A DNA stretch of 44,574 nt from Bdellovibrionales bacterium (GCA_005776395.1 SXPJ01000018.1:1-44574), one strand, 5' to 3'. Positions 21,507 to 39,807 are shown, numbered from the stretch's first letter. Notes: generated from the letters alone by a model not told the origin. Numbers and translations are program-made.

Positions 21507-21667
21507 CACTCATCAGTTAATCCCGTACCAGATCGGTGAGTTGATTTTGGGTGGCAAAGCGAGATGCGCCGACAACCGTGTACTCTTGGTACTCGTAGGA
21601 GGCGCAACAAAGCTTTGCTACAAAAGCAACCGCCCAGCGGGTGCGAGATTAACTGATTAGTGCTATA
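21502..21667. repeat. 166-bp nested inverted-repeat element (MITE-like)
   Basis: Outer arms 21502-21522 and 21647-21667 are complementary over 21 bp with one mismatch. Inside, 21551-21560 pairs with 21612-21621 (one mismatch) and 21565-21570 with 21601-21606, with GTAC at 21580-21583 and 21589-21592 at the tip. TA dinucleotides flank both ends, as in IS630/Tc1-type insertions that duplicate TA. There is no coding capacity. It lies between allB and the allantoicase gene, and its left arm contains the allB stop codon. It could be a non-autonomous transposable element or a structured RNA affecting the operon mRNA. Confidence 0.7.
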
Positions 21668-21678
21668 TAGAAAGAGTT

Positions 21679-21683
21679 GGAGA
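21679..21683 (+). promoter_or_regulatory. Ribosome-binding site fixing the allantoicase start
   Basis: GGAGA, 5 nt before ATG 21689, overlaps an in-frame TTG at 21677 and therefore argues against that earlier start. Confidence 0.7.
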
Positions 21684-21688
21684 GAAAA

Positions 21689-22723: not shown

Positions 22724-22725
22724 AA

Positions 22726-23241: not shown

Positions 23242-23581
23242 ACTGAGCCCTATTACCACTCATGTACTTGATGTGAGTTGTGGAAAACCTGCAGCTAATA
23301 TTTCCTGTAAGCTCGAGAGATTGAACTCACAATCTCAGTGGGAAAAGATCGGTGAGGGGGTCACTAATCAAGATGGAAGAGTAGACACTTTGCTGTCTTC
23401 ACCTATTAATAAAGGGATTTATCGGATTGAGTTTTTAACAAAACCTTATTTCGAGCAGAAAAAAACAAATTCATTTTATCCTTCGGTGACGGTTCATTTT
23501 GAGATTGTCTCACCCGAAGAGCACTATCATGTTCCCTTACTTTTAAGTCCTTATGGCTATTCAACTTATCGAGGAAGCTGA
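23234..23581 (+). CDS. uraH: 5-hydroxyisourate hydrolase (transthyretin-like)
   Basis: Hydrolyses 5-hydroxyisourate, the product of the urate hydroxylase, to OHCU. 115 residues, full length. The family's N-terminal ITTHVLDVSCGKPA with the catalytic His and its C-terminal YRGS tetrapeptide are both present; HYHVPLLLSPYGYSTYRGS is the classical ending. The gene overlaps uraD by 8 bp, fitting consecutive steps of the pathway. No signal peptide is seen, so it acts in the cytoplasm. Confidence 0.96.
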   Translation: MNKLSPITTHVLDVSCGKPAANISCKLERLNSQSQWEKIGEGVTNQDGRVDTLLSSPINKGIYRIEFLTKPYFEQKKTNSFYPSVTVHFEIVSPEEHYHVPLLLSPYGYSTYRGS

Positions 23582-23586
23582 TACTT

Positions 23587-24936
23587 ATGAAAACTACATT
23601 CACTCAAGACTCTCTTGGCCCCATTACCTCTAGTTTACATTCGGCAAATCAGAGGTTTTTAAAGTTGTATCCTGGAATGACTCATGATCGCCAGCCGGTT
23701 CATACGGTCTATGGGGGGGCTCAGATCTTTTCGAGTGATACGGCAAAAAAGATGAGTGGTGTTGCAGTTAGAAATCTTAAAGAGTATGCGCCCAATGCTA
23801 AATCTCTTATGAAAGCCTTAGGCGAAGAAAAGGCCGACATTGAACTGTGGTCTAAGATATACTTTCGAGTCATTAAAAAGTTAGAGGACGAGGCAGTTGA
23901 AGATTTTCGCATTGATTATGAGGACGGTTACGGAACCCGTCCAGATGCTGAAGAGGATGGACACGCTGAAAGTGGGGCTTTAGAGGTTGCCAAAGGGATA
24001 GCTCAAGGTTCGTTGCCCCCTTTTATTGGAATTCGGATTAAGCCTTTTTCTGAAGAATGCTATGCACGAAGTATTCGAACTCTAGATATTTTTCTCTCTA
24101 CTTTATTGAGTCAAACTTCCGGGAAGTTACCGCTTAAGTTTGTGGTGACACTTCCTAAAGTTACTCATCAAGAGCAATGTGCAGCTTTAGTTCAGCTTTT
24201 TGAGGTCTTGGAAAAACAATATAAGTTACCTATAGGAACTTTAAAATTTGAATTTATGGTCGAAACGACCCAATCAATTTTAAATGCCGAAGGGAGTTCC
24301 CCTTTAAGAAGTTTTGTAGAGGCTGGAAAAGGGCGATGTACAGGGGCTCATTTTGGAACTTACGATTATACGGCTGGGTGTGGGATAACAGCGCACTATC
24401 AAACGATGATTAACCCAGTTTGTGATTTTGCCAAACATGTAATGCAAGTTTCATTAATGGGAACGCCAGTTTTACTCTCGGATGGAGCGACTAATGTGAT
24501 GCCGGTGGGGCCTCATCGAGCTTTAGAAGGTAAGCCTTTGAGTTTAGATCAGATCCAAGAAAACCAAGCGGTTGTCCATCGAGCCTGGAAGTTAAGCTAT
24601 GATCATATTCGTCATTCCTTAGCGACCGGTTTTTACCAAGGATGGGATCTTCATCCAGCACAACTTCCCGTTCGATATGCTGCAACTTATGCCTTTTTCT
24701 TAGAAACTCTCAATTCGGCTTCAGATCGACTTAAAGGATTTGTGGAAAAAGCAGCTAAAGCCACTTTGTTAGGAGATGTCTTTGATGATGCCGCGACGGG
24801 TCAGGGGCTTTTAAACTTTTTTTTAAGAGCTTTAAGCTGTGGGGCCATCACCTCTGAAGAGGCTTTAAAGACGGGGCTTTCTATTGAAGAGATCCAAAGT
24901 CGATCTTTTATGAAAATTTTGGAACGACGAAGGTAA
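23587..24936 (+). CDS. CitE/HpcH-fold aldolase-like protein (DUF6986 type), possible glyoxylate-consuming enzyme
   Basis: 449 residues, cytoplasmic. The layout follows the citrate lyase beta/malyl-CoA lyase/malate synthase superfamily: an IDYEDGYG block (110-116), GIRIKPF (148-153), E226 in FMVETTQ and D260 in GTYDYTA, the last two being the expected Mg ligands. I recall this group as DUF6986, often mislabelled phosphoenolpyruvate kinase and found beside allantoin genes in actinobacteria. Its place at the end of a uricolytic operon, 5 bp after uraH, suggests it condenses glyoxylate from ureidoglycolate with an acyl-CoA. That reaction is inference. Confidence 0.75.
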   Translation: MKTTFTQDSLGPITSSLHSANQRFLKLYPGMTHDRQPVHTVYGGAQIFSSDTAKKMSGVAVRNLKEYAPNAKSLMKALGEEKADIELWSKIYFRVIKKLEDEAVEDFRIDYEDGYGTRPDAEEDGHAESGALEVAKGIAQGSLPPFIGIRIKPFSEECYARSIRTLDIFLSTLLSQTSGKLPLKFVVTLPKVTHQEQCAALVQLFEVLEKQYKLPIGTLKFEFMVETTQSILNAEGSSPLRSFVEAGKGRCTGAHFGTYDYTAGCGITAHYQTMINPVCDFAKHVMQVSLMGTPVLLSDGATNVMPVGPHRALEGKPLSLDQIQENQAVVHRAWKLSYDHIRHSLATGFYQGWDLHPAQLPVRYAATYAFFLETLNSASDRLKGFVEKAAKATLLGDVFDDAATGQGLLNFFLRALSCGAITSEEALKTGLSIEEIQSRSFMKILERRR

Positions 24937-25120: not shown

Positions 25121-25525
25121 GTGGAGACGGGATACATCACAGCTTTTTGGTTTATCATCATATCCGCATTAACCGTTCCCTTAATGTTGGGAGTGGGTTA
25201 TCTGCTTCGTCCTAAGAGTAAGGTTACCCGTAGAAAAATGACCTCCTATGAGTGTGGTGAAGAGCCGGTAGGTTCGGCCTGGGTTAAGTTCAATATTCGA
25301 TTTTATATGGTTGCGATTGTTTTTATTATTTTTGATGTAGAGATGGCAGCTATTTTTCCAGTGGCCACTGTTTTTAAAGAGTCCATTGCAAATGGAACTG
25401 TGGCTTTAGTCTTTAGTGAAATTTTTCTTTTTGTGGCCCTTCTTTTAATTGGTTTGATTTACTGTTGGGTCCGTGGAGACTTGGAGTGGGTAAAAGGCGT
25501 AACTAAGTTCGCCCCCAATAAATAA
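25121..25525 (+). CDS. nuoA: NADH-quinone oxidoreductase subunit A, set 1
   Basis: Complex I membrane-arm subunit at the junction with the peripheral arm. 134 residues, three membrane helices. The loop SYECGEEP contains the conserved Cys of subunit A, and FIIFDVEMA in the second helix carries the conserved acidic pair. A GTG start with AGAGG at 25105-25109 (11 nt spacing) is used. It is the first of seven set 1 genes; its stop shares one base with the nuoH start (TAATG). Confidence 0.95.
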
Positions 25526-26658
25526 TGGTTCAATCGGCTCAATTTGCACATTCGTTAGAAGGTTGGTTTGGCTTACTTCCTTTATGGGGATGGGCTGCTG
25601 TATCAGCTTTTATCGTTATTTACTTTTTAGCTTTACCTTTTGGTGGGTTAGCCACTTACATTGAAAGAAAGATTGCGGCCGACATGCAAGACCGCATTGG
25701 CCCTAATCGCGTAGGCCCTATCGGACTTTTTCAGTTTGCGGCTGATGCTGTTAAAATGTTGGCTAAAGAGGACTTTATTCCTAAAGGTGGCGACCGTTTT
25801 CTATTTAATCTAGCCCCTTTATTTGTTGTGGTGGGTTCTTGTACAGCCTTTGCGGTTCTTCCTTTAAGTAAGTACTTAATAGGTGCTGATCTTAATATCG
25901 GGGTTGTCTTTATTCTTGCGGTAACCACTTTAATTGCTCCCGGACTTCTTTTGGGTTCGTGGGCCTCTGAAAATAAATGGTCTTTATTAGGAGGACTGAG
26001 AGCGGCTTCTCAAATCGTGAGTTATGAGATTCCAGTGGCCCTTTCAATTCTGCCTATCGTTTTGATTTCGGGGAGTCTTCAAATTGGCTCGATTGTAGAG
26101 CAACAGGGATGGACAGTTTTTGGTGAAAATCAAGCTAGTTATCACTTCTGGAATGCTTTTCATAATCCCTTTACCTTCTTCTCTATGTTTCTGTTGTTTA
26201 TAGGGGGGCTTGCTGAAACCAACCGTATTCCCTTTGATTTACCGGAGGCTGAATCAGAATTGGTCTCTGGATTTAACACCGAGTTTTCTGGAATGAGATT
26301 TGGTTTATATGCACTGGGTGAGTTCTGCGATGTTTTCGTAATGTCAGCGATGGTTACAGCACTGTATTTAGGGGGTTGGCACATTCCCTTTTTAGACATT
26401 GAAAAGCTAGGGTTTGCGTTACCCACGGCTCTTGTCGCTTTTGTTCAGTTTCATATGTTTATGATTAAGACCTTATTAGTGGTGTTCGTAGTTATGTGGC
26501 TACGATGGACCCTTCCTAGGTTGCGTGTCGACCAATTGATGGGTATGTGTTGGAAAGGTCTTCTTCCTCTTGCTTTCTTTAATATTTTGGGAACTGCACT
26601 TTGGATGTGGGTATTTAAAGGTCAGTCTCTCATGCAGCTTTTGGCGGGGCATGGGTGA
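25525..26658 (+). CDS. nuoH: NADH-quinone oxidoreductase subunit H, set 1
   Basis: 377 residues. Subunit H forms much of the quinone channel. ATYIERKIAADMQDRIGPNRVGP and AETNRIPFDLPEAESELVSGFNTE, the two family signatures, are intact, including the acidic loop facing the quinone cavity. About eight membrane helices. The start shares its A with the nuoA stop. It is 23 residues longer than the set 2 copy, mainly in loops. Confidence 0.96.
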   Translation: MVQSAQFAHSLEGWFGLLPLWGWAAVSAFIVIYFLALPFGGLATYIERKIAADMQDRIGPNRVGPIGLFQFAADAVKMLAKEDFIPKGGDRFLFNLAPLFVVVGSCTAFAVLPLSKYLIGADLNIGVVFILAVTTLIAPGLLLGSWASENKWSLLGGLRAASQIVSYEIPVALSILPIVLISGSLQIGSIVEQQGWTVFGENQASYHFWNAFHNPFTFFSMFLLFIGGLAETNRIPFDLPEAESELVSGFNTEFSGMRFGLYALGEFCDVFVMSAMVTALYLGGWHIPFLDIEKLGFALPTALVAFVQFHMFMIKTLLVVFVVMWLRWTLPRLRVDQLMGMCWKGLLPLAFFNILGTALWMWVFKGQSLMQLLAGHG

Positions 26659-26661
26659 TTT

Positions 26662-27165
26662 ATGAATAAAGTTTTGCTTTTAGCTGAAATTTTAACCGTC
26701 GCCTCAGCTTTAGTGGTTGGGTTTCATCCCAATATTCTTTACGCTTCAGTTTTCTTGCTCTTCACTTTCTGTGGAGTGGCAGTCATGTTCCTGTATGCAG
26801 GGGCCGATTTTTTAGCGGGTGCTCAAATTATTATCTATGTAGGTGGTGTGACTATTCTGATTCTGTTCGCCATTATGTTGACCCAATGGCTTTACAAAAT
26901 CAAACTCGCGGATCTAAGAAATAAGATGATTCTGCCTGCGATATTATCTGTGGCTGTGGCTGTTTTTTTATATCGTGCTCTTCATCAGATGGTGGCAACA
27001 TTGCCGCTTCAAACACCTGAAGCTTTGGAAAAATTCACTTCGACTCCTAAAACAGCCCTCATGGGTCATGCGCTTTTAGGCAGTTACTTACTTCCTTTTG
27101 AAGCTATTACCATTCTTCTTTTAGGGGCAATGGTTGGAGCTGTTTGGTTAGCGAGGCCTGAATGA
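26662..27165 (+). CDS. nuoJ: NADH-quinone oxidoreductase subunit J, set 1
   Basis: 167 residues, five membrane helices. The key third helix reads IIIYVGGVTILILFAIMLT. This differs from the set 2 paralogue, ILIYTGAIVVLFVFVVMLL, and resembles NuoJ of other lineages, pointing to separate ancestry of the two sets. The J third helix contains the pi-bulge involved in coupling, so differences there may matter. It overlaps nuoK by 4 bp. Confidence 0.92.
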   Translation: MNKVLLLAEILTVASALVVGFHPNILYASVFLLFTFCGVAVMFLYAGADFLAGAQIIIYVGGVTILILFAIMLTQWLYKIKLADLRNKMILPAILSVAVAVFLYRALHQMVATLPLQTPEALEKFTSTPKTALMGHALLGSYLLPFEAITILLLGAMVGAVWLARPE

Positions 27166-27488
27166 ATCATCTCATGCAATTTAGTTCAAGTTTGCAGGGG
27201 TACTTAGCTGTAGGAGCTATGCTTTTTTCTCTTGGAATTTTTTGTGTTTTGACACGAAAAAATGCCATCGGAATTTTGCTGGGGATTGAACTTATCCTGA
27301 ACGCTGCAGCCATAAATTTTGTCGCTTTTAGTAAATTTAGAACCGGTTTGATTGACGGTCAGATCGTCGCTCTCTTCATCATGCTGATTGCAGCAGCTGA
27401 GGCTGCGGTGGCACTTGCCGTGATCTTACGTTTTTATCGGCTTAAACAAACCATTGATGCAGATGAAGCAAGCATCATGAGGAACTAA
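27162..27488 (+). CDS. nuoK: NADH-quinone oxidoreductase subunit K, set 1
   Basis: 108 residues, three helices, MrpC-like antiporter relative. The conserved glutamate in GIELILNAAAINF (helix 2) and that in AAAEAAVALAVIL (helix 3), both needed for proton transfer in the E. coli protein, are present. It overlaps nuoJ by 4 bp and lies 1 bp before nuoL. Confidence 0.95.
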   Translation: MNHLMQFSSSLQGYLAVGAMLFSLGIFCVLTRKNAIGILLGIELILNAAAINFVAFSKFRTGLIDGQIVALFIMLIAAAEAAVALAVILRFYRLKQTIDADEASIMRN

Positions 27489-27489
27489 G

Positions 27490-29565
27490 ATGGCACAGCA
27501 AGCATTATTAATTGCTTTATTTCCGTTATGTGCGTTTGTCATTCAAGCGCTCTTTGGAAAAAAACTCCCCCGCCACGGAGATTTTGTCTCTGTGCTTGCG
27601 ATTTTCGGATCGTTTGTAGTAGCGGTTCCAATCTTCACGAAGTTACTAACTCAAGGACATGTCTTTGAGACCTTCCAAGTCACCTGGATGGCACTTCCTG
27701 GAGTTGAAGCTAGTGGTAAACTTAATAGTGCAGCGAACATTGTTATTGGGGTTCTTATCAATAACTTGACCGCGATCATGCTGATCATGGTTACCTTATG
27801 TGCCTCTTTGATTCACCTCTTCTCAGTCGGTTACATGCATGGAGAAGAACGTTACCATCTATTTTTTGCTTATATTTCTCTGTTTTCTGCTGGAATGTTG
27901 GGACTTGTTCTTTCGGATAATCTCTTAACATTTTTTATGTGCTGGGAGTTGATGGGGCTTTGTTCTTATCTGTTGATTGGGTTCTATTACAAAAAGCCAT
28001 CGGCGATTAACGCTAGTATCAAAGCTTTTATGACCACTCGTGTGGGCGATACCATGTTCTTTTTAGGTATTGCGGCTCTTTATTATGTTTTCGGCACCAG
28101 CAACTTCATGGAGCTCTACAAAGCTCTTCAACAGGGTGCGGGTCACGATGTCATGATTGCAGGTTTTCCAGCTTTAACCTTTATTGGTTTTATGGTTCTG
28201 ATGGGAACTATTGGTAAATCGGCTCAATTTCCACTTCATGTTTGGTTACCCGATGCGATGGAAGGTCCCACACCTGTAAGTGCTCTTATCCATGCTGCAA
28301 CTATGGTGGCTGCGGGTGTATTTCTTTTGATTCGTATGTTTCCGCTTTTAGAAGCTTCTCATACGATACTTCCAATCGTGGCCTACATAGGTGCGATTAC
28401 AGCGTTCTTGGCAGCCTTGATAGCGATTGTTCAAGTCGATATCAAAAAAGTTCTTGCTTACTCTACTATCAGTCAATTGGGTTACATGGTGATGGGGGTA
28501 GGTGTGGGGGCTTTCGCCCCTGGTTTCATGCATCTGATAACCCATGCCTGTTTTAAAGCCTGTTTATTTTTGTGCTCAGGTTCGGTTATTCACTCTGTTC
28601 ATACTCAGGACATGAGAGAAATGGGCGGTCTAAAATCCAAAATGCCGATTACGTTTGCGACCATGTTTATCGCTACATTGGCTATCAGTGGCGTTCCAGG
28701 ATTTTCTGGGTTTGTAAGTAAAGACCGAATTCTTGGGGGGGCTTTGGCCTATAGCATGGAACATCAAGGGCATTACCTAATTCCATTATTAGGATTTGCT
28801 ACTGCCGGCATTACTGCTTTCTATATGTTCCGTATGATTTACATGACCTTCTTTGGTCATGCTCGTGATGAACACAAACATCATCATGCTCACGAACAGC
28901 CCGTAACAATGACTATTCCACTCATGATCTTGGCCTGTTTATCCTTTGCGATTGTATTTGCGGGACCTACTGGCATTGAATCGATTGATCATATGATGCC
29001 TGTGAAATGGTTTGATCACGCTTTAGAAGGTGCTCAACATGAAATGGGAATTGCAGAACACTTGTCTCCTGAAGCTGAAGCCATTCATCACCATGCTCAT
29101 GGGTTAGCCTTGATACTCTCTTTGGCTGTTGCAGGTCTGGGGATTTTTATCTCCTCCATCACTTACTTGAAGCACATTCTCAAAGCAGAGACCTTAAAGA
29201 AGATGGCAGGACCGGTCTACCCTCTGTTGTGGAATAAGTATTTCTTTGATGAGTTTTACATTGGAATTCTAATCCAAAAAGGGCTTCTCAAATTCAATCA
29301 CTTTCTAGCCGTGTTTGACGATAAAGTTATCGATCGAATTTGTGTGGATGGATGGCGCGATATTACCATGGGTGTAAAAAGTATCATTGGAAGATTTGAT
29401 GATGTGGTTGTTGATCGAATTATGGTGGATGGGACTGCCGATGTCACTGCGGGTGGCGGATGGGTGTTACGTCAATTTCAGACCGGAAAAGTTCAACATT
29501 ATTTAGTTTTGACAGTGATGGTAATCATTGTGGCTTTGTTTTATGCAAATTTGGGCTTGAAGTAG
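27490..29565 (+). CDS. nuoL: NADH-quinone oxidoreductase subunit L, set 1
   Basis: 691 residues, the distal antiporter-like proton pump with the long lateral C-terminal helix. The TM5 glutamate is E153 in CWELMGLCSYLLIGFYY, and HVWLPDAMEGPTPVSALIHAATMV is intact. Two His-rich loops (DEHKHHHAHEQ, around 28870-28902, and HHHAHG, about 29090) lie between the later helices and are absent from set 2. The C-terminal segment (IDRICVDGWRDI...GGGWVLRQFQTGKVQHYL) is typical of the lateral-helix region and final anchor. Confidence 0.96.
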   Translation: MAQQALLIALFPLCAFVIQALFGKKLPRHGDFVSVLAIFGSFVVAVPIFTKLLTQGHVFETFQVTWMALPGVEASGKLNSAANIVIGVLINNLTAIMLIMVTLCASLIHLFSVGYMHGEERYHLFFAYISLFSAGMLGLVLSDNLLTFFMCWELMGLCSYLLIGFYYKKPSAINASIKAFMTTRVGDTMFFLGIAALYYVFGTSNFMELYKALQQGAGHDVMIAGFPALTFIGFMVLMGTIGKSAQFPLHVWLPDAMEGPTPVSALIHAATMVAAGVFLLIRMFPLLEASHTILPIVAYIGAITAFLAALIAIVQVDIKKVLAYSTISQLGYMVMGVGVGAFAPGFMHLITHACFKACLFLCSGSVIHSVHTQDMREMGGLKSKMPITFATMFIATLAISGVPGFSGFVSKDRILGGALAYSMEHQGHYLIPLLGFATAGITAFYMFRMIYMTFFGHARDEHKHHHAHEQPVTMTIPLMILACLSFAIVFAGPTGIESIDHMMPVKWFDHALEGAQHEMGIAEHLSPEAEAIHHHAHGLALILSLAVAGLGIFISSITYLKHILKAETLKKMAGPVYPLLWNKYFFDEFYIGILIQKGLLKFNHFLAVFDDKVIDRICVDGWRDITMGVKSIIGRFDDVVVDRIMVDGTADVTAGGGWVLRQFQTGKVQHYLVLTVMVIIVALFYANLGLK

Positions 29566-29592
29566 AGTCCAAGGTTTTTTGAAAGGGAGAGT

Positions 29593-31107
29593 ATGTTTCC
29601 GATTCTATCAGTAATGACCTATATCCCCTTGTTGGGCATGATCGTTATCTTAGCTTTGCCTCGCAATAATCCAAATCTCGTGAGATGGGTTGCGGTGGTG
29701 GCCACAGCGCTTCCACTAGCCTTGGGTGTCTATCTGTATATGCATTTCGACAGAACGACTGCCAGTATGCAGTTTGTCGAGCAGTTTGATTGGATCAAAC
29801 CTTTCAATATTCAGTACTACATGGGAATAGACGGACTTAGTATTCCGATGGTTCTATTAACAGTACTTCTCTCTTTCCTTTGTATCATTGCATCTTGGGG
29901 AATTGAAAATGGAGTTAAAGGGTACTACGCAATGTTCCTGTTTTTAGAGACAGGAATGATGGGAGTATTCTGTGCTTTAGATTTCTTCCTCTTCTTCCTC
30001 TTCTGGGAAATTATGCTTCTTCCCATGTACTTCTTGATTGGTATCTGGGGAGGTAAAGAGAAGGTTTACGCAGCTATCAAATTCTTTTTGTACACTTTAT
30101 TTGGTTCCGTGCTGATGCTGCTTGTGATGGTGGGTATGTATTATTACTCCGAACCGCATACATTTAACCTGTTGCAGTTAGCTCAAGGTCATCAGTTTGT
30201 AGGGAAAACAATAGCTCTATTCGGCTACTCATTACCTTTAGATAAACTTTTTTGGATAGGTCTTTTTATTGGGTTTGCGATTAAAGTTCCCGTATGGCCT
30301 TTCCACACTTGGTTGCCTTGGGCGCATGTGGAAGCTCCTACAGCTGTTTCTGTGATCTTGGCCGGTGTTCTTCTAAAAATGGGAACTTACGGAATTCTTA
30401 GGATGAACTATCCTATTCTTCCAGAGGCTACTCTGTGGGCCTCTAATTTCATGATGATTCTTGGAGTGATCAATATTCTTTACGGCGCTTTCTGTGCAAT
30501 GGCTCAGAAAGATCTTAAGAAACTTGTGGCCTATTCTTCAGTATCTCATATGGGATACGTGATTGTAGGGATGGCAAGTTTCACCACTGCGGGTGTGAAT
30601 GGCGCTGTTCTTCAAATGTTTAATCACGGAACTTCAACCGCCATGCTGTTCTTGCTCGTAGGGATTATTTACGATCGTGTTCATCATCGTTGGATTGTTA
30701 AACCTGATGGTTCCAAGGGCTTTGGTGGAATTGCTTCGGTCGTTCCTGTCTACACAGGGGTTATGGCTATCGCTCTTTTCGCCTCTTTAGGTCTTCCGGG
30801 ATTGAGCGGATTTATCAGTGAAGCTTTGGTGTTCTTAGGTGCTTTTTCCAATCCCAAATTTCAAACCTATGTAGTGATTGGTTCGCTTGGCATTTTACTA
30901 GGAGCTGCCTATCTTTTGTGGATGTTCATGAGAGTCTTCTTAGGACCTCTTAATGAAGAGCATAAAGATCTCAAGGACATGAATTGGAGAGAGACTTTTA
31001 CTCTGATTCCGCTTTGCGTTTTAGTGATTGTTTTAGGTGTTTACCCCATGCCAGTGTTGAATCTTATGGGCAGTACCCTTGCTAAACTATTAACGCTATT
31101 CTCTTAA
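29593..31107 (+). CDS. nuoM: NADH-quinone oxidoreductase subunit M, set 1
   Basis: 504 residues, antiporter-like proton pump. TM5 E139 (FWEIMLLPMYFLIGIWG), TM7 K231 (FAIKVPVWPFHTWLP) and LLKMGTYG are present. After HTWLP the usual Asp is replaced: the protein reads HTWLPWAHVEAPTAVSV, so W243 sits where NuoM normally has Asp, and a Val replaces the usual Gly in APTAGSV. The set 2 paralogue keeps Asp. Codon 30319-30321 is TGG. The gene starts 27 bp after nuoL with a GAAAGGGAG ribosome-binding site. Confidence 0.95.
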   Translation: MFPILSVMTYIPLLGMIVILALPRNNPNLVRWVAVVATALPLALGVYLYMHFDRTTASMQFVEQFDWIKPFNIQYYMGIDGLSIPMVLLTVLLSFLCIIASWGIENGVKGYYAMFLFLETGMMGVFCALDFFLFFLFWEIMLLPMYFLIGIWGGKEKVYAAIKFFLYTLFGSVLMLLVMVGMYYYSEPHTFNLLQLAQGHQFVGKTIALFGYSLPLDKLFWIGLFIGFAIKVPVWPFHTWLPWAHVEAPTAVSVILAGVLLKMGTYGILRMNYPILPEATLWASNFMMILGVINILYGAFCAMAQKDLKKLVAYSSVSHMGYVIVGMASFTTAGVNGAVLQMFNHGTSTAMLFLLVGIIYDRVHHRWIVKPDGSKGFGGIASVVPVYTGVMAIALFASLGLPGLSGFISEALVFLGAFSNPKFQTYVVIGSLGILLGAAYLLWMFMRVFLGPLNEEHKDLKDMNWRETFTLIPLCVLVIVLGVYPMPVLNLMGSTLAKLLTLFS

Positions 31108-31110
31108 GTT

Positions 31111-31116
31111 AAGAGG
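31111..31116 (+). promoter_or_regulatory. Ribosome-binding site fixing the nuoN start
   Basis: AAGAGG, 5 nt before GTG 31122, makes that the likely start; a GTG at 31116 in frame overlaps the site. Confidence 0.65.
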
Positions 31117-31121
31117 TGTTT

Positions 31122-32603
31122 GTGACGGCTGAAACTTTACATAATATCAAGTTGCTGGCTCCTGAAGTCTGCCTCACTTTTTTTCTCTGCTTCCTCTTTG
31201 TAGTCGATGGCCTTTTTCCTAAAACTCGGACCAATAAGTTTTCAATGATTACTACAGTAGTGGCCTGCATCGCTGGGATCTTACTAACCTGTAAAGTGGG
31301 AAAAACACCTGAGGCCTATTTCGGTGGACTTGTAGTGAACGATGGATTTACAAAGTTCTTCCGATATTTCTTCTTCTTTACAGCGGCAGTGAGCAGCTAT
31401 GTTGCTTTTGGTTCTAAAGAGATCGAAACCCGAAGCCGCATGGAGTTCTCACTTCTATTACTTTGTACAACCATTGGTATGTCAATTATGGCAGCTGCCT
31501 CCAACCTTTTAGTTCTCTACATGGGAATTGAAATGGTCAGTATTATCTCGTTTGTGATGGCTGGATTTAAGCGAGATAATTTAAAATCCAATGAAGCTTC
31601 ATTTAAATATTTAGTTTTTGGAGGAGTGGCTTCTGGCTTCATGATCTACGGCTTTAGTTTGATGTATGGTTTAACTGGTTCATTAAACTACCCTCAGATG
31701 GCGGCCTATTTAACTGCGGCTCAAGGTAATTTTGGATTGGTATTTTGGTTAGCTTTAGTGCTTATCTACGGTGGACTTGCTTATAAGATATCCGCATTTC
31801 CTATGCACTTCTGGGCCCCTGACGTCTATGAAGGTGCTCCAACACCTATTGCGACCTTTTTCAGTGTAGGTCCTAAAGCTGCTGGATTTGCCGCTTTATT
31901 GCGAATGCTCCTTACAGTTTTTGCAGTGAAAACAGCTGAGGGAAATTGGCAGATGATCAACGGCATCTCCTTAACTCATGTCATTGCAGTTATCTCTGCT
32001 CTTACTATGGTAGTAGGAAACCTCTCAGCTATTGGTCAAACCAATGTGAAGCGAATTTTAGCTTACTCAAGTATTGCTCATGTAGGTTACATGTTGATGG
32101 GACTTGTAACCTTGGATCGTTCTGGTCTTACAGCGATCCTCTTTTATCTCATTGCTTACTGTGCGATGAACCTTGGGGCCTTTTGGGTTGTGGGTGTGGT
32201 TGCAAACCTTCGGGGTAGAGAAGATCTTGATGCTTTCCGAGGTCTCGGCTGGTCGATGCCAGTTCTTGGAATCTGTATGGGTATTTTCATCTTTTCTCTG
32301 ACTGGGATTCCAATGTTTTCTGGATTTATTGGAAAGTTCCTTATTTTTGGCTCTATCATTAAATCAGGAGGCTACTTATGGTTAGTTCTCTTAGGTGTGA
32401 TGAACAGTGTGGTCTCTCTCTATTACTACATTAAAATTTTGAAATCGATGTGGTTAGATAGGCCTGAGAGCCCAGAATCACTTAAGCTGTCTACTTACCA
32501 TGCAGTGGGCTTAGTAGGACTTGCCATCCCCACTGTTGTGCTTGGATTGTATTTCACTCCGATTTTGGAGTTTGCTGAAAGAACTCTCTCAAATCTGTTA
32601 TAG
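31122..32603 (+). CDS. nuoN: NADH-quinone oxidoreductase subunit N, set 1
   Basis: 493 residues from the GTG at 31122. Third antiporter-like pump of the membrane arm. YMGIEMVSIISFVMAGF carries the TM5 Glu, and SNEASFKYLVFGG, SAFPMHFWAPDVYEGAPTP and GPKAAGFAALLR with the conserved lysines are intact. It is the last gene of set 1 and lies 30 bp before nuoA of set 2, with no terminator between, so both sets are probably in one transcript. Confidence 0.95.
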   Translation: MTAETLHNIKLLAPEVCLTFFLCFLFVVDGLFPKTRTNKFSMITTVVACIAGILLTCKVGKTPEAYFGGLVVNDGFTKFFRYFFFFTAAVSSYVAFGSKEIETRSRMEFSLLLLCTTIGMSIMAAASNLLVLYMGIEMVSIISFVMAGFKRDNLKSNEASFKYLVFGGVASGFMIYGFSLMYGLTGSLNYPQMAAYLTAAQGNFGLVFWLALVLIYGGLAYKISAFPMHFWAPDVYEGAPTPIATFFSVGPKAAGFAALLRMLLTVFAVKTAEGNWQMINGISLTHVIAVISALTMVVGNLSAIGQTNVKRILAYSSIAHVGYMLMGLVTLDRSGLTAILFYLIAYCAMNLGAFWVVGVVANLRGREDLDAFRGLGWSMPVLGICMGIFIFSLTGIPMFSGFIGKFLIFGSIIKSGGYLWLVLLGVMNSVVSLYYYIKILKSMWLDRPESPESLKLSTYHAVGLVGLAIPTVVLGLYFTPILEFAERTLSNLL

Positions 32604-32633
32604 AAACTTTTAAAGATAGAAAGGAAAATACTG

Positions 32634-32996
32634 ATGGAAGCATTTCTACCTGTAGGTTTCCTTTTTATTTTTGCCCTTCTTCTTTGTATCGGTTTATTTA
32701 CGGTTAAGCGGTTATTAGGGCCTAGAAATCCTATAGCCTCAAAACTTTCTGTCTATGAATGTGGTGTTGCACCAGAGGGGAATGCCCGGGCACCGTTTAA
32801 GACCCATTTCTATTTAATCGCAGTTCTTTTTCTTCTCTTTGACGTTGAGGCGGCCTTCTTTTTTCCTTGGGCCTTAGTTTATAAGGAATCCTTAGCTCAG
32901 GGGCCTGCACTTTTAATTGCAATGCTCGTTTATATGGGATTTTTGGTTTTAGGGCTTGTTTATATCTTTAGAAAAGACTGCTTGAGGCTGAATTAG
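32634..32996 (+). CDS. nuoA: NADH-quinone oxidoreductase subunit A, set 2
   Basis: 120 residues, three helices, with VYECGVAPEGNARAPFKTHFYLIA, the family loop, and FDVEAAFFFPWA in helix 2. GAAAGGA precedes the ATG. Only moderately similar to the set 1 copy outside the ECG and FDVE motifs, so the two are old paralogues or come from different sources. It opens the second membrane-arm cluster. Confidence 0.95.
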   Translation: MEAFLPVGFLFIFALLLCIGLFTVKRLLGPRNPIASKLSVYECGVAPEGNARAPFKTHFYLIAVLFLLFDVEAAFFFPWALVYKESLAQGPALLIAMLVYMGFLVLGLVYIFRKDCLRLN

Positions 32997-32997
32997 T

Positions 32998-34062
32998 ATG
33001 GAGTGGACAGATCTCATTGTAATTGCAGTTAAGACAGCGATTATCTATTTGGGGATGGTCCAGGTTGTTCCTATCATGTTGATTGTGGAGCGAAGAGGGG
33101 CTGCTTTTATTCAAGATCGTCCGGGTCCAAATAGAGTGGGCCCTTTTGGGCTTTTTCAGCCTATTGCCGATGTCATTAAAATGATGATGAAAGAGGTTAT
33201 CAGTCCTCGGCAAGTGAACAAGGCCCTCTATCTTCTTGGCCCTTTTTTAGTTCTTTTACCGGCCTCTTTAATTGTTGCAGCCCTTCCCTTTGGAGATTTT
33301 TTTACTCTCTTTGATAAGAGCTACATGATTCAGATCGCCAACCTGGATGTTGGAATTCTCTATGTGTTAGCCATTGGCTCTCTTGGAATTTACGGAATTT
33401 TGTTTGGAGGCTGGGCTTCAAATAATAAGTTTTCTCTCATTGGAGCGATGAGAGCCACTTCTCAAATTATCAGTTATGAAATTCCATTGGGCCTAGCAGC
33501 TTGTGGTGCCGTTCTTTCCTATGGCAGTTTCAGTCTGAGGGAGATGGTAATGGCTCAAGAGGGAACTCTTTTGGGGGCTCTTCCCCATTGGGGAATCTTT
33601 TATCAGCCTTTAGGATTTTTACTTTTTTTTATAGCGGCCTTTGCAGAGACTAATCGTCTACCTTTCGATCTTCCAGAAACCGAGGCGGAGCTAGTTGCCG
33701 GATTTCACACTGAGTATGGTCCCATGGATTTCGGAACTTTCTTTATGGCCGAGTACATGAACATGGCAACCATGTCAGCTCTCATGGTATCGATCTATTT
33801 TGGGGGATGGCATTTACCCTGGATTTCAGATGCCACTTTACTTGAAGGATTAGGATCTCGAAATCTTCTAGCTCTTCTTCAAGTTCTTACTGTCATAGTT
33901 AAAATTTCATTTTTCATGTTGGTATTTGTATGGGTTCGATGGACTATCCCTCGATTTCGTTTCGACCAGTTGATGCGTCTCGCTTGGAAAAATTTGATTC
34001 CACTCGGACTTATTAATTTGGTGATCACCGCCCTAATCTTTTATTTTAAGGGGGCCATATGA
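32998..34062 (+). CDS. nuoH: NADH-quinone oxidoreductase subunit H, set 2
   Basis: 354 residues. VERRGAAFIQDRPGPNRVGP and AETNRLPFDLPETEAELVAGFHTEYG are both intact, so the quinone-channel loops look functional. About eight membrane helices. It begins 1 bp after the nuoA stop and overlaps nuoJ by 4 bp. The set 1 version has ERKIAADMQDRIGPNRVGP at the first signature, showing divergence even in conserved blocks. Confidence 0.96.
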   Translation: MEWTDLIVIAVKTAIIYLGMVQVVPIMLIVERRGAAFIQDRPGPNRVGPFGLFQPIADVIKMMMKEVISPRQVNKALYLLGPFLVLLPASLIVAALPFGDFFTLFDKSYMIQIANLDVGILYVLAIGSLGIYGILFGGWASNNKFSLIGAMRATSQIISYEIPLGLAACGAVLSYGSFSLREMVMAQEGTLLGALPHWGIFYQPLGFLLFFIAAFAETNRLPFDLPETEAELVAGFHTEYGPMDFGTFFMAEYMNMATMSALMVSIYFGGWHLPWISDATLLEGLGSRNLLALLQVLTVIVKISFFMLVFVWVRWTIPRFRFDQLMRLAWKNLIPLGLINLVITALIFYFKGAI

Positions 34063-34568
34063 GAGAAGGGCTCTTTATAGCTTTTAGCCTTTTTACGATT
34101 GCCGCAGCTAGTGGGGTCGTTCTTTCTAAAAACCCAGTGTATAGCGCTTTTAGTCTTATACTCTCCTTCTTTGGATTGTCTGGCCTATATTTGCTCTGGG
34201 GCTCTACCTTTATGGCGATGATACAGATCTTAATCTACACTGGAGCTATTGTAGTTCTTTTTGTGTTTGTGGTTATGCTTTTGAATCTTCAGGTGATTCG
34301 AGAAAACTCACCGAATTTATTATTTGTTGGAGTTGTATCGGCTACAGTTTGGTTTTTTTCTTTGATCATTCTTAGGGTTTTGACTCGAGCCATTCCAACT
34401 AATGTGACAGAGATTCCAACTAATCAATTACGAACTATTTCAAAATTGTTATTCACCCGTTATTTGTGGCCTTTTGAAGTTCTTTCCCTATTTCTACTTG
34501 TTATGATTGTGGCAATTTTCGCTATTACTCGGGCGCAGGAGATTTCGCACGGGGGAGAAAAAGTATGA
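34059..34568 (+). CDS. nuoJ: NADH-quinone oxidoreductase subunit J, set 2
   Basis: 169 residues, five helices. The third helix (MIQILIYTGAIVVLFVFVVML) is the common proteobacterial form, unlike set 1. Overlaps nuoH and nuoK by 4 bp each (ATGA type), implying translational coupling. Confidence 0.92.
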   Translation: MREGLFIAFSLFTIAAASGVVLSKNPVYSAFSLILSFFGLSGLYLLWGSTFMAMIQILIYTGAIVVLFVFVVMLLNLQVIRENSPNLLFVGVVSATVWFFSLIILRVLTRAIPTNVTEIPTNQLRTISKLLFTRYLWPFEVLSLFLLVMIVAIFAITRAQEISHGGEKV

Positions 34569-34879
34569 ATTTTCCTCTTTCAATGACCTACTGGTCTCAC
34601 TTTGTAGTGGTGGCGATGTTTGCGCTGGGTCTTTTAGGATTTCTTTTAAGAAAGAACACTATTGTAGTTTTAATGTCCATTGAACTCATGCTCAATGCAG
34701 TGAATCTATTGTTAATTGAGACCTCGATGCGAACCCATACTTCTGAGGGAATTATTTTAGTTGTATTTGTGGTGACCGTGGCTGCAGCGGAAGTGGCTGT
34801 AGGCTTAGCCATTGTATTGAATCTGTATCGGATGAAGGGTTCGGTAAATTTAGATCACTTTAAGAGTTTGCAAGGATAG
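34565..34879 (+). CDS. nuoK: NADH-quinone oxidoreductase subunit K, set 2
   Basis: 104 residues, three helices. Both key glutamates are present: MSIELMLNAVNLL in helix 2 and AAAEVAVGLAIVLNLYR in helix 3. It overlaps nuoJ by 4 bp and precedes nuoL by 2 bp. Length is typical for the subunit. Confidence 0.95.
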   Translation: MNFPLSMTYWSHFVVVAMFALGLLGFLLRKNTIVVLMSIELMLNAVNLLLIETSMRTHTSEGIILVVFVVTVAAAEVAVGLAIVLNLYRMKGSVNLDHFKSLQG

Positions 34880-34881
34880 TT

Positions 34882-36786
34882 ATGGTGTCGGTATCTCACA
34901 TTTTAGTTGCGATGATCGTATTACCCCTAGTGGGAAGTATTTTGAATGGCCTTGTGATACGCCCTGCATTTCCAAAACGCGCCGGGGTCATAGCTAGCTT
35001 TTTTGCGGTGAGCTCTTTTTCTTGTGCTCTTTTTCTTTTTTCTAATTTAAGCCATGAATTGCAAAGTATTACCTGGGCAATGGATTGGTTTGATGTAGGT
35101 GATTTCCATCAGAAGTGGGGACTTAAATTTGATGCTTTAACTGCGATCATGGCTTTGGTTGTAACCGGCATTGGTTCTCTTATTCATCTCTATTCAATTG
35201 GCTACATGGCTGAGGAGCGGGGTCCAAGCCGTTACTTCGCCTATCTCAATCTATTTTTATTCAACATGCTTCTTCTGATTACTTCCGATAATCTTTTAGG
35301 ATTATTTGTGGGCTGGGACGGGGTAGGGCTCTGTTCCTATCTTCTTATTGGATATTGGTACGAGGATCTAGATAAAGCTAAAGCTGGAATGAAGGCTTTT
35401 CTTGTGAATCGTATTGGTGATGCTGGATTTTTAATTGGCCTTTTTTACTGTTACCAAATGTTTCATACGATCCGTTTTGATGAAATTGAGAGGTTGCTTG
35501 CGACCTCAAGTCAGTTTGATCTTCATCTATTAAATATTGCTGCCTTCTTTTTGTTTGTAGGGGCCACTGGGAAATCGGCTCAGATTCCGTTGTATGTGTG
35601 GTTGCCTGATGCGATGGCGGGTCCTACTCCCGTGAGTGCGCTTATTCACGCTGCCACCATGGTGACGGCGGGTGTCTATTTAATCTGTCGAATGAATTTC
35701 TTGTACATGCTGACTCCCGATACCAATGCCATTATAGCCTGGATCGGTGTGGGAACGGCTTTGTTTGCTGCTTTAATTGCTACGGCACAAAGAGACATTA
35801 AAAAAGTATTGGCCTATTCAACGGTCAGTCAGCTAGGTCTCATGTTTTTAGCTGTAGGATGTAAGGCCTATTTCGCAGCTATTTTTCATTTGATGACTCA
35901 TGCCTTTTTTAAAGCTCTTCTCTTCTTAGGGGCTGGAAGCGTTATTCACGGCCTACATGGAGAGCAAAATATTTGTCATATGGGGGGGCTCCGAAAGAAA
36001 ATGCCCGGAACCTTTCTAACCTGTTTGATTGCAACTGCGGCGATCTGCGGAATCCCCCCACTGTCTGGATTTTTTAGTAAAGATACGATTCTCTTTAGTG
36101 CCTTGGCTTCGGAATCTACTCAAGCCACTACACTTTGGGTCTTAGCGCTTGTGGCTTCAACTTTAACTGCTTTCTACATGACTCGAATGTTTGTACTGGT
36201 TTTCTTAGGAGAATATCGAGGAGAGGTTCATCCCCATGAAAGTCCTTGGGTTATGTTACTGCCGTTGATGCTTCTTGCGGTGGGAAGTGCGTTGAGTGGA
36301 TTTCTAGGAGTTCCACATGGGTTACATCTCATGCCCAATTTTTTAGAATCCTATCTTTCAACTGTTCTTGTAGAGTTTCCAGAAGAGGTGACTATAGTAT
36401 CGGAGCACTCTGCGATGTTTATCGCAACTGGATTAGCTCTGTCGGGAATTCTTGTGGCCTGGTTTTTCTATGGAAAACTTTCTCGCGCCGAGGCAGTTCA
36501 AAAAGGGTTGAGACCTTTTCAAATTATATTTGCGAATAAATTCTGGATTGATGAACTCTATGATCTAGTTTTTGTAACTCCATTCAAGTGGGGCTGTCGG
36601 TTTTTTTCGAGATTTATTGATTCCTTTGTAATTGATGGATTGGCTCTTTTACCAGCGAGAGTTTCCTCGGTGGGATCTGTATTTTTAAGTGTAATTCAAT
36701 CAGGATTGGTTCAGTTTTATCTGATGATTTTTCTTCTCGGAGGATTGTGGGTGTTGTGGCATTCGTTGAAAGGGTGGGTAATTTAA
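34882..36786 (+). CDS. nuoL: NADH-quinone oxidoreductase subunit L, set 2 (Glu to Asp in TM5)
   Basis: 634 residues, shorter than the set 1 copy and without its His-rich loops. Antiporter-like domain with YVWLPDAMAGPTPVSALIHAATMV intact. The TM5 carboxylate that is Glu in nearly all NuoL (E144 in E. coli) is Asp here: D146 in VGWDGVGLCSYLLIGYWY (codon GAC at 35317-35319). Set 1 retains Glu. The lateral-helix region (FWIDELYDLVFVTPFKWG) and terminal anchor are present, so the protein looks complete. Confidence 0.95.
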   Translation: MVSVSHILVAMIVLPLVGSILNGLVIRPAFPKRAGVIASFFAVSSFSCALFLFSNLSHELQSITWAMDWFDVGDFHQKWGLKFDALTAIMALVVTGIGSLIHLYSIGYMAEERGPSRYFAYLNLFLFNMLLLITSDNLLGLFVGWDGVGLCSYLLIGYWYEDLDKAKAGMKAFLVNRIGDAGFLIGLFYCYQMFHTIRFDEIERLLATSSQFDLHLLNIAAFFLFVGATGKSAQIPLYVWLPDAMAGPTPVSALIHAATMVTAGVYLICRMNFLYMLTPDTNAIIAWIGVGTALFAALIATAQRDIKKVLAYSTVSQLGLMFLAVGCKAYFAAIFHLMTHAFFKALLFLGAGSVIHGLHGEQNICHMGGLRKKMPGTFLTCLIATAAICGIPPLSGFFSKDTILFSALASESTQATTLWVLALVASTLTAFYMTRMFVLVFLGEYRGEVHPHESPWVMLLPLMLLAVGSALSGFLGVPHGLHLMPNFLESYLSTVLVEFPEEVTIVSEHSAMFIATGLALSGILVAWFFYGKLSRAEAVQKGLRPFQIIFANKFWIDELYDLVFVTPFKWGCRFFSRFIDSFVIDGLALLPARVSSVGSVFLSVIQSGLVQFYLMIFLLGGLWVLWHSLKGWVI

Positions 36787-36787
36787 A

Positions 36788-38329
36788 GTGACAGACTCAC
36801 TATTAGCCCTATTGCTTTTTGTCCCCTTAGTTGGAGTTGTTCTATGTATACCTTTGTCTCAGGAGCTTACTAAGTGGATAGCACTTTTAACCTCTTTGGT
36901 TGGAGTTGTTTTAGCGGGAATCCTCTATCAAAATTTTAATGCGGCCGATTCAGCAAATTTGCAGATGGCATGGTCGTTTCCTTGGATTTCAAGTTACGGA
37001 ATTAAGTTTGGTTTAGCTGTTGATGGGTTGAGTTTTCCTCTCATTCTTTTGACCAAAGTCATGATGCCGATAGCACTTTTAGCTAGCTGGGGCGAAGCTC
37101 GAAGACTTCGAGCTTTTATGAGTTGCTTTTTATTTCTTGATTTTGCGATGACAGGAACTTTTCTAGCAACTGATCTCTTTCTCTTTTATGTTTTTTGGGA
37201 ATTAATGCTGATTCCGATGGTCCTACTTATCGGTGTATGGGGAGGTCAGAATCGGGTTTACGCGGCACTTAAGTTTTTCCTTTTTACGTTTACGGGTAGT
37301 GTTTTGATGTTGGTTTCGATCCTCTGGATTTTTGGTGCCCATTACAGTCAATTGGATTCGTTTACTGGAGAGATCTCTCAGTATTCGAAATTGGTCTTTT
37401 CGCCAGAACCGGTATTTTGGAGCTTAACAGTTCAGGATCTGATTTTTTGGGGGTTCACGGTTGCCTTCTTAATTAAGGTTCCACTTTTTCCTTTTCACAC
37501 TTGGCTACCCGATGCCCATGTTCAGGCGCCTACCGGGGGCAGTGTTCTTCTAGCTGCGATTCTTCTAAAAATGGGAACTTATGGGCTGATGAGATTCTCT
37601 ATTCCTTTTTGTCCTGATTCTTTCATAAAAGCGATTCCTGTACTTTCTTTCTTGAGTTTAGTCGGAATTGTGTACGGAGCTTGGGTTGCTTTTCATCAAA
37701 GTGACATGAAAAAATTGGTAGCCTATTCTTCTGTAAGCCATCTAGGTTTTGTGGTCTTAGGACTTTGTGCCTTAAATCGTGAGGGGCTCACAGGAAGTGT
37801 TCTTCAGATGATTAATCACGGCATATCAAGCGGAGCTTTATTTCTTCTTGTGGGAATTCTTTATGAACGACGTCACAGTCGACAGTTTGAAGATTTGGGT
37901 GGACTTGCCTCTGTGATGCCTCGGTACGCCTTTTTTCTAGTCTTTGTGGTTTGTTCAAGTATGGCGGTTCCTGGTCTCAATGGTTTTGTGGGAGAGTTTT
38001 TAATTCTTCTAGGCGCATTTAAAGCTAAACCCATGTGGGCTTATGTCGCAGTGACGGCCGCACTTTTTGGGGCTGTTTATCTTTTAGAGATGTTGAGACG
38101 GGTTCTCTTTGGGCCGATTACCTCTGGAGAGAATAAGAATTTGAAGGATTTATCCCTTAGGGATTGGGTAAGCTTAGTTTCAATTACAGTCATGATTTTG
38201 ATGCTAGGGATAAGCCCTAATTTTCTTTTGAAGAAAATTGATCCGGCACTTGATGCTTTTTGGAAAGCGGCTCTCAAAAAGACCCATGTGGATACAGTAC
38301 TCTCTGGAAAGCGAGATAGGAAAGTATGA
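36788..38329 (+). CDS. nuoM: NADH-quinone oxidoreductase subunit M, set 2
   Basis: 513 residues with a GTG start 1 bp after nuoL. TM5 E138 (FWELMLIPMVLLIGVWG), TM7 K230 (LIKVPLFPFHTWLPDAHVQAPT) and LLKMGTYG are conserved, including the Asp that set 1 lacks. VGEFLILLGAF near the C-terminal half is also typical. It overlaps nuoN by 4 bp. Confidence 0.95.
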   Translation: MTDSLLALLLFVPLVGVVLCIPLSQELTKWIALLTSLVGVVLAGILYQNFNAADSANLQMAWSFPWISSYGIKFGLAVDGLSFPLILLTKVMMPIALLASWGEARRLRAFMSCFLFLDFAMTGTFLATDLFLFYVFWELMLIPMVLLIGVWGGQNRVYAALKFFLFTFTGSVLMLVSILWIFGAHYSQLDSFTGEISQYSKLVFSPEPVFWSLTVQDLIFWGFTVAFLIKVPLFPFHTWLPDAHVQAPTGGSVLLAAILLKMGTYGLMRFSIPFCPDSFIKAIPVLSFLSLVGIVYGAWVAFHQSDMKKLVAYSSVSHLGFVVLGLCALNREGLTGSVLQMINHGISSGALFLLVGILYERRHSRQFEDLGGLASVMPRYAFFLVFVVCSSMAVPGLNGFVGEFLILLGAFKAKPMWAYVAVTAALFGAVYLLEMLRRVLFGPITSGENKNLKDLSLRDWVSLVSITVMILMLGISPNFLLKKIDPALDAFWKAALKKTHVDTVLSGKRDRKV

Positions 38330-39807
38330 ATACGGTAGTGGATTACTTTTTAATTCCGTTATTACCGGTAATGGCCTTTATCTTTGCAGGGCTACTTCTT
38401 ATTTTAGTTCAGTGTTTTAAACGTCCAAGTCTTAGGCCCTTCACAAAATTGTTGGGATTTTTGGGGCCCGTGGGAGCGATGGGGGCGACCTGGTATTTAT
38501 TTAAATCTCAACCTCTGGCCTATTCGACAGCCATGGCAGGTTCTTATGAAGCCTGGTTGAATGAGTTTATTCAATCTTATCAGTTAGACTCGATTACCAT
38601 GGTTTGGTATTGGGCGATTGGAGCCCTATCTTTTGTCTCCTTTATTTTTATTGAGGCCTATTTTGCGGATTTAGAAGAGCTTCCTGAGATTTTAATTCTT
38701 CTTGAGTTTATTGCTGCAGCGATGATGCTACTTATTTCGGCTAGTAATCTTCTTATGGTTTTCATGGCTCTTGAACTCATGTCGTTACCGACTTATGTGC
38801 TAGTCGGAATCGAGAGAGAGAAGCATTTTGGAGCTGAAGCCTCCTTGAAATATTTTCTTTTTGGTTCATTTGCTACAGTTCTATTGTTGTTTTCAATAGC
38901 GCTTCTTTATGCCTACACGGGAAGTTTACAGTTTACACAGATTTCAAATTTTTTAAGAGTGCCTGTGGGAGGAGAAAATCCAAGTGGTCTTATGGTTCTT
39001 GCGGCCTCGGCTCTTTTTATTATTTCGGTAGGTTTTAAGTTGGGGATGGCGCCATTTCATATGTGGCTTCCAGATGCCTATGAAGGTGCCTCTACGCCCA
39101 TTACCGGTTTTATGGGAAGTGCCATTAAGCTTGCGGGATTCGGCATGGCCCTTAGATTATGGTGGGGAATGTTAGCCCCTATTTCAAGCCATTGGACAGA
39201 AATTCTGGGAGTCCTTTCAGTTCTCACGATGTTTGTGGGAAATCTGGGGGCTTTAAAGCAGAAAAATTTAAAACGGTTATTTGCCTACTCGAGTATCTCT
39301 CATGCAGGGTATTTAATTTTGGGGTTGATCTCGATTTCTAAAGTAGGCAGTCAACTTGGCGTACAGAACCTCTTCTATTACTTGGTAGTTTACGGTTTTA
39401 TGTTTTTGGGGATCTTTGGAATTTTGGCAGTTATCGAAAAGCAAACTGGAAGTACTGATCTTTCTAACGTAGAAGGAATCGGTTTTTCACATCCCTTTTT
39501 AGGTTTGTGTTTTTTAGTTTTGGTCTTGTCGGCAGCTGGAATTCCACCTACAGCTGGATTTTTAGGGAAGTATCTTCTGTTTGCCGATGCCGTTAGAACT
39601 GGCCATACGACTTTGGTAGTTTTGGCGGTGCTAAGCAGTGTGATTGGAGTCTATTACTATCTGAGAGTTCTTGTGGCTCTCTATATGACCGAACCGTCTC
39701 AAAGAATAGTTCTTACGACTAAAAACAGGTTGGTATTTCTGGGAATTTTAGCCTGTGCCTTTTGCATGATCTTCTTTTCATTTTTTCCACAGAAACTCGG
39801 TATTTAA
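38326..39807 (+). CDS. nuoN: NADH-quinone oxidoreductase subunit N, set 2
   Basis: 493 residues. FMALELMSLPTYVLVGI has the TM5 Glu; GAEASLKYFLFGSFA and APFHMWLPDAYEGASTPITGFM carry the usual lysine and TM7-8 loop. In the following helix it reads SAIKLAGFGMALR where set 1 has GPKAAGFAALLR; the Lys is kept. Last gene of the 14-gene complex I block, ending 7 bp before a convergent gene. Confidence 0.95.
   Translation: MNTVVDYFLIPLLPVMAFIFAGLLLILVQCFKRPSLRPFTKLLGFLGPVGAMGATWYLFKSQPLAYSTAMAGSYEAWLNEFIQSYQLDSITMVWYWAIGALSFVSFIFIEAYFADLEELPEILILLEFIAAAMMLLISASNLLMVFMALELMSLPTYVLVGIEREKHFGAEASLKYFLFGSFATVLLLFSIALLYAYTGSLQFTQISNFLRVPVGGENPSGLMVLAASALFIISVGFKLGMAPFHMWLPDAYEGASTPITGFMGSAIKLAGFGMALRLWWGMLAPISSHWTEILGVLSVLTMFVGNLGALKQKNLKRLFAYSSISHAGYLILGLISISKVGSQLGVQNLFYYLVVYGFMFLGIFGILAVIEKQTGSTDLSNVEGIGFSHPFLGLCFLVLVLSAAGIPPTAGFLGKYLLFADAVRTGHTTLVVLAVLSSVIGVYYYLRVLVALYMTEPSQRIVLTTKNRLVFLGILACAFCMIFFSFFPQKLGI

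Follow-up and report, generated by a model that had tools for sequence, protein, structure and literature searches.

Why should a genome of the Bdellovibrionales hold two complete membrane arms of respiratory complex I one behind the other, with no peripheral-arm gene beside either of them? The question is raised by a 44,574-nucleotide stretch of DNA (GCA_005776395.1, SXPJ01000018.1:1-44574), referred to here as the window. On its plus strand the order nuoA-H-J-K-L-M-N occurs twice, head to tail, as set 1 (25121-32603) and set 2 (32634-39807). All fourteen genes are open, full-length reading frames, and the identity of the A, H, J, K, L, M and N subunits in both sets is given by NCBIfam models with strong E-values (Table 1). 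The two sets lie 30 bp apart, and the remaining junctions measure -4 to +27 bp, with genes mostly overlapping or abutting within each set. The preliminary description of this DNA had reported the doubled gene order, the 30-bp spacer, and fourteen complete proteins; the reading frames, the NCBIfam assignments, and the junction spacing confirm each of these points.

Table 1. The fourteen complex I membrane-arm genes of the window, with the best-fitting NCBIfam model and its E-value; "tree" or "trees" marks subunits placed by one or by several phylogenies.
Gene	Position	Strand	Length (aa)	NCBIfam model, E-value	Remarks
nuoA set 1	25121..25525	+	134	NF005839, 5.9e-25	GTG start; tree: set 1/EFG-less side
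nuoH set 1	25525..26658	+	377	NF004741, 2.2e-93, above cut-off	trees
nuoJ set 1	26662..27165	+	167	NF005163, 1.2e-27	tree
nuoK set 1	27162..27488	+	108	NF004320, 4.8e-27, above cut-off	tree
nuoL set 1	27490..29565	+	691	TIGR01974, 5.8e-185	key residues retained; trees
nuoM set 1	29593..31107	+	504	TIGR01972, 2.5e-177	trees
nuoN set 1	31116..32603	+	495	TIGR01770, 4.6e-114	GTG start; tree
nuoA set 2	32634..32996	+	120	NF005839, 8.5e-25	starts 30 bp past nuoN of set 1; Shine-Dalgarno-like AAAGGAAAA in front
nuoH set 2	32998..34062	+	354	NF004741, 1e-96	trees: set-2/EFG side
nuoJ set 2	34059..34568	+	169	NF005164, 7.5e-30	tree
nuoK set 2	34565..34879	+	104	NF004320, 2.2e-25, above cut-off	tree
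nuoL set 2	34882..36786	+	634	TIGR01974, 7.8e-208	trees
nuoM set 2	36788..38329	+	513	TIGR01972, 1.1e-166	GTG start; trees
nuoN set 2	38326..39807	+	493	TIGR01770, 6.8e-111	tree

Judged from this spacing, both membrane arms are probably carried on one transcript. No terminator-like hairpin was found at the 30-bp junction between the sets, and the counts of the terminator scan stayed below the shuffle expectation. A urate-degradation cluster precedes set 1, and set 2 is followed by an unidentified ORF, an integrase-family gene, thyX, and dus. The tandem is not an assembly artefact, because it recurs in congeners and in other families. Its two halves are nearly equal in GC content (0.422 in set 1, 0.417 in set 2) and share 36% identity in NuoA, 42% in NuoH, 26% in NuoJ, 42% in NuoK, 41% in NuoL, 42% in NuoM, and 36% in NuoN; this range of 26-42% bears out the earlier view that the sets have diverged too far to stem from a recent duplication.

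The absence of peripheral-arm genes, which had also been noted, holds for the window, where no other complex I gene was recognised, but not for the genome, an assembly of 106 contigs that is 98% complete. Contig C83 carries a full peripheral arm, nuoB-C-D-E-F-G-I, and contig C53 a reduced one, nuoB-C-D-I, which lacks E, F, and G and is followed by a rhodanese gene; the two are unlinked to the membrane arms and to each other, and their B, C, D, and I subunits are 30-55% identical. The proposed search of the genome for nuoBCDEFGI thus finds these genes elsewhere, on C83, but returns a second, reduced arm as well. Genome-wide, nuoD was found twice, nuoF once, and antiporter-type (L/M/N) genes six times; all six of the latter sit in the window, and the membrane arms number exactly two. 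With seven plus seven membrane subunits and seven plus four peripheral subunits, the genome therefore encodes one 14-subunit and one 11-subunit complex I. NuoF, NuoE, and NuoG of C83 have the domains Complex1_51K (1.3e-45), NADH_4Fe-4S (2.1e-30), 2Fe-2S_thioredx (1.6e-52), and Fer4_Nqo3 (2.9e-24). The iron-sulfur cluster ligands of the 11-subunit complex are retained, with the CC...C...C pattern of cluster N2 in NuoB (CCAIEMM...GSCS...PGCPP) and two four-cysteine motifs in NuoI (CISCKQCAVVC and CCYCGLCSSVC). The C83 NuoG is short, at 554 aa (L004:7911-9572), with little of the C-terminal molybdopterin-like domain, and a NuoG of ~450-570 aa is common among the relatives examined.

How the four arms pair can be read from gene linkage, phylogeny, and co-occurrence, which class set 1 with the 11-subunit complexes that lack E, F, and G, and set 2 with the 14-subunit NADH enzymes. 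Among 63 named loci outside the phylum that hold both NuoH and NuoD, all 47 with a set-1-like NuoH lack E, F, and G and carry a reduced-type NuoD (Chlorobium, Ignavibacteria, Poribacteria, Planctomycetota, and Paenibacillus are among their taxa), and E/F/G are present in 12 of the 16 with a set-2-like NuoH. Within the phylum, families f5, f7, and f14 have nuoC-E-F embedded in set 2, and three genomes (G027, G034, G087) carry a full set-2-type operon, A-B-C-D-E-F-G-H-I. In a tree of concatenated NuoH, NuoL, and NuoM, built on 1447 columns for 100 taxa, the set-1 sequences of the phylum form one clade with a support of 1.0, nested among EFG-less complexes, and EFG-linked complexes group with set 2 or lie beyond the set-1 part of the tree. 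Single-subunit trees, made for all seven membrane subunits and for B, C, D, and I, split in the same way, with a support of 0.76-1.0 depending on the subunit and a few external sequences that deviate; EFG-type external operons are few in them (7-19 per tree) because the operons were collected using a set-1 query. Such trees against other bacteria had been proposed at the outset, and they separate the sets, which are not recent sisters, but lend no support to one shared arm, as each peripheral arm tracks one set.

Co-occurrence points the same way. In 86 genomes of the phylum, each at least 95% complete, set-1 NuoH is present in 34, and the reduced-arm NuoD is found in 33 of these and in none of the other 52 (Fisher, 5e-23, a value that ignores relatedness among the genomes). 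A sample of 39 genomes gave 19 of 23 with set 1 and 0 of 16 without it. Two genomes (G021, G028) hold set 1 and the reduced NuoD with no nuoF at all, and one (G031) has a NuoD of neither kind. From these three lines of evidence we infer that set 1 assembles with the BCDI arm of C53 and set 2 with the BCDEFGI arm of C83. The window would then encode the membrane half of each of two distinct complex I enzymes, one driven by NADH and one by another donor, a reading to which we assign a probability of about 0.88.

The preliminary description had favoured two isoforms built on one shared peripheral arm. Two isoforms are indeed likely; it is the sharing that fails, since there are two arms and each tracks one set. 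That both membrane arms use a single NADH-type arm and so form two NADH-driven isoforms would fit the lack of peripheral genes in the window, as well as three genomes of the family (G002, G006, G007) that contain set 1 while no reduced-arm B, C, or D is detectable in their assemblies, probably owing to assembly gaps. We nevertheless consider it improbable: this genome has a reduced second arm, as do nearly all genomes with set 1, G021 and G028 carry set 1 without any nuoF, and the external set-1-like operons hold their own reduced B-C-D-I. Two peripheral-arm sets matching the relatives of the two clusters had been named as the result that would speak against sharing, and this is essentially what is found, except that one of the sets is reduced to BCDI.

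For the two separate enzymes, a division of labour can be proposed from the families to which their subunits belong. The set-2 enzyme, with BCDEFGI, would oxidise NADH through NuoEFG. The set-1 enzyme, with BCDI, is probably unable to use NADH, because the FMN/NADH module is missing, and would be fed by a soluble, low-potential electron carrier that docks at NuoI/NuoB. The alternative raised earlier, that one set works with another electron donor, is thus the best fit, with set 1 and the EFG-less BCDI arm in that role. Both enzymes would reduce quinone and pump protons, each with the standard three antiporter subunits. If one transcript serves both pumps but not the input arms, the cell could adjust the balance between the enzymes by regulating the peripheral-arm operons, which lie elsewhere in the genome.

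Characterised EFG-less complexes offer some guidance on the donor. The nuo complex of Bacteroides fragilis, which lacks E, F, and G, has no NADH:quinone activity, and its deletion leaves that activity unchanged (PMC7002350). The 11-subunit complex of Desulfitobacterium hafniense is required for growth on lactate or pyruvate and not with H2, and the leading candidate for its donor is pyruvate:ferredoxin oxidoreductase together with a ferredoxin (PMC11238625). The present genome encodes a 2-oxoacid:ferredoxin oxidoreductase, with a fused alpha subunit (KorA; TIGR03710, 564 bits, cut-off 483) adjoining KorB. This enzyme is a plausible source of reduced ferredoxin, and our guess is that such ferredoxin feeds the set-1 complex. 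The distribution of the oxidoreductase among genomes does not follow that of set 1, and co-occurrence is not diagnostic of the donor here, because POR_N proteins occur both with and without set 1. In the neighbourhoods of nuoBCDI in 13 genomes we found no conserved redox partner: a rhodanese gene is present in the family of the window, an HdrC/TfrB-like iron-sulfur protein lies beside nuoI in family f4, and unknown proteins occupy these positions in Bacteriovoracia-type genomes.

With no donor gene linked to nuoBCDI, and with the donors of 11-subunit complexes generally unknown and possibly several (PMC11238625), a supply that is not of the ferredoxin type has to be weighed, either through a dedicated, unrecognised protein or through NuoEFG of C83, recruited as a detachable NADH module. 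For the latter there is a parallel in the docking of the Hox diaphorase proposed for cyanobacterial NDH-1 (PMC9414918). The set-1 complex does not require NuoEFG, however, because G021 and G028 have the same complex without nuoF, a point that leaves room for the dedicated donor. Taken together, we regard this pair of options as unlikely, if still worth keeping in view. More speculative is the idea that the membrane arms are interchangeable pumps and that the cell swaps NADH-type and EFG-less peripheral arms, or docks NuoEFG on the reduced arm, according to growth phase, altering the donor or the stoichiometry. We hold it to be a long shot; if true, complex I would be a modular, reconfigurable enzyme here. 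An Rnf or Nqr complex was ruled out as an alternative: a lone gene for an NQR2/RnfD-family membrane protein (L225:4520-5404; G000, contig C19) stands beside a DUF2330 gene, with the other Rnf/Nqr subunits absent alongside and no Rnf/Nqr operon.

Both sets predate the phylum, and their tandem is old and widely conserved within it. The phylum itself is probably Bdellovibrionota, because the named relatives of set 1 (Bacteriovorax, Bacteriovoracaceae, Bacteriovoracia) fall in the same set-1 clade as family f9. The tandem of set 1 and set 2 is found in the genus and family of the window, in a further family of its order (G014), and in families f4, f7, and f14, with a larger gap between the sets in f4. 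One f9 genome (G044) has the sets ~25 bp apart, near the spacing of the window; stops that seemed to interrupt its set-2 NuoH proved to be an artefact of the search, and the ORF is open. Most of the f9 or Bacteriovoracia-type genomes sampled have set 1 and the reduced arm only, and Bdellovibrio-like families have set 2 only.

Both sets are also under purifying selection. Pairwise dN/dS between congeners is 0.01-0.10 in both, values meaningful as orders of magnitude only because dS is often saturated. Both sets retain the proton-channel residues (acidic and lysine), the glutamates of NuoK, and the ETNRxPFDLPE loop of NuoH, except for one glutamate-to-aspartate change in NuoL of set 2. At residue 146 of that protein (window position 35317), the glutamate of the GWEGV motif is replaced by aspartate (GAC), and 26 of 27 set-2 sequences of the phylum have glutamate; either a true substitution or an erroneous base could explain the change. 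The strong divergence between the sets might suggest that one was recently acquired by horizontal transfer or survives as a decaying remnant, and acquisition of one set had been put forward. It finds no support, because each set is old and found in more than one family of the phylum: the phylum's set-1 sequences form a single clade, GC content is equal, the tandem occurs in several families, and frames are open and dN/dS low in both sets. Such an origin is therefore very improbable.

The same survey bears on a larger hybrid membrane arm with extra pumping subunits, built from both sets together, which had likewise been considered and for which the probable co-transcription of the tandem could be cited. 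However, there are no extra subunits, each set being a standard single A-H-J-K-L-M-N with its own A, H, J, and K, the subunits that make the single junction to the peripheral arm. The genome contains two peripheral arms, and either set is found alone in other families, so that we give this arrangement next to no credence.

Both enzymes are thus of known kinds, and no new enzyme is at hand; it is the gene arrangement that is unusual and conserved. Set 1 with nuoBCDI resembles the EFG-less complex I of D. hafniense, B. fragilis, and Chlorobium in having 11 subunits and no E, F, or G, and it groups in trees with EFG-less complexes from Chlorobi, Ignavibacteria, and Poribacteria genomes. The usual 11-subunit complex is encoded by one operon, whereas here it is divided between two loci (A-HJKLMN and BCDI), and its membrane genes run in tandem with those of a second complex I. 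Together, set 2 and the C83 arm supply 14 subunits, the number found in NDH-1 of Escherichia coli, and set 2 falls with EFG-linked operons; unlike in E. coli, the membrane and peripheral arms are unlinked and NuoG is only 554 aa long. The 2M complex I of Nitrospira and others has more antiporter genes than usual, including a second NuoM. The name 2M is used in PMC9040806 and PMC6606698. Antiporter genes are in surplus here as well, but each set has one L, one M, and one N, and neither contains a second NuoM-type antiporter. Two phylogenetically distinct complex I isozymes occur in Rhodobacter sphaeroides, where both are NADH enzymes encoded by two operons (PMC4859585). The present cell likewise has two distinct complexes, but only one of them has the NADH module, and the genes for their membrane arms follow one another in tandem. 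Two other families were set aside: neither NuoD has the N- and C-terminal CxxC motifs of membrane-bound [NiFe] hydrogenases, and the proteins score best to Nuo models, with Mrp models far below cut-off.

What is new is the tandem of two membrane arms, the relocation of both peripheral arms, and the wide conservation of this layout. In the literature accessible to us, we found no description of 11- and 14-subunit membrane arms in tandem with both peripheral arms relocated, or of its conservation across the phylum. An EFG-less and an NADH-driven complex I have been kept together through a predator-rich phylum, with the pumps probably made jointly and the inputs encoded apart. Because one enzyme or the other is missing from some relatives, the phylum provides a natural panel on which to ask what feeds an 11-subunit complex I and how paralogous membrane subunits avoid mis-assembly.

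Relatives also show several variations in nuo gene structure. A NuoB-NuoD fusion of 583-601 aa occurs at L210:4499 (G019), L211:4216 (G038), and L214:5148 (G017), with nuoC lying inside set 2 together with nuoE-F; at L214, NuoG and NuoI apparently share one 769-aa frame, and a NuoC-NuoD fusion is seen in other relatives. Families f8 and f16 (L220 in G040, L221 in G046, L058 in G020) have a 14-subunit nuo operon that is immediately preceded, in the same orientation, by a very divergent EFG-less complex I-like operon. B-D-H-I-K-M-N are recognisable in it, and its NuoH is ~27-31% identical to that of set 1. A tandem of an EFG-less and an NADH complex seems to be recurrent in the phylum, because this operon is far from set 1 in trees.

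Elsewhere in the window, the urate breakdown cluster (18545-24936) encodes urate oxidase, allantoinase, allantoicase, OHCU decarboxylase, HIU hydrolase, and a DUF6986 protein, and ends 184 bp before nuoA of set 1. Its membrane urate oxidase (PF06181, 18545-20140) has a C-terminal cupredoxin-like pattern, LHNIH ... CDIHPWMMGY, with a weak amicyanin match (E 0.001), which suggests that electrons may pass from urate to the respiratory chain by copper-mediated transfer. Two convergent 402-aa ORFs at 277-2706 were considered as an inverted duplicate and rejected, their sequences being unrelated. Downstream of the nuo genes, the FAD-dependent thymidylate synthase (41682-43253) combines two ThyX domains in one 523-aa protein.
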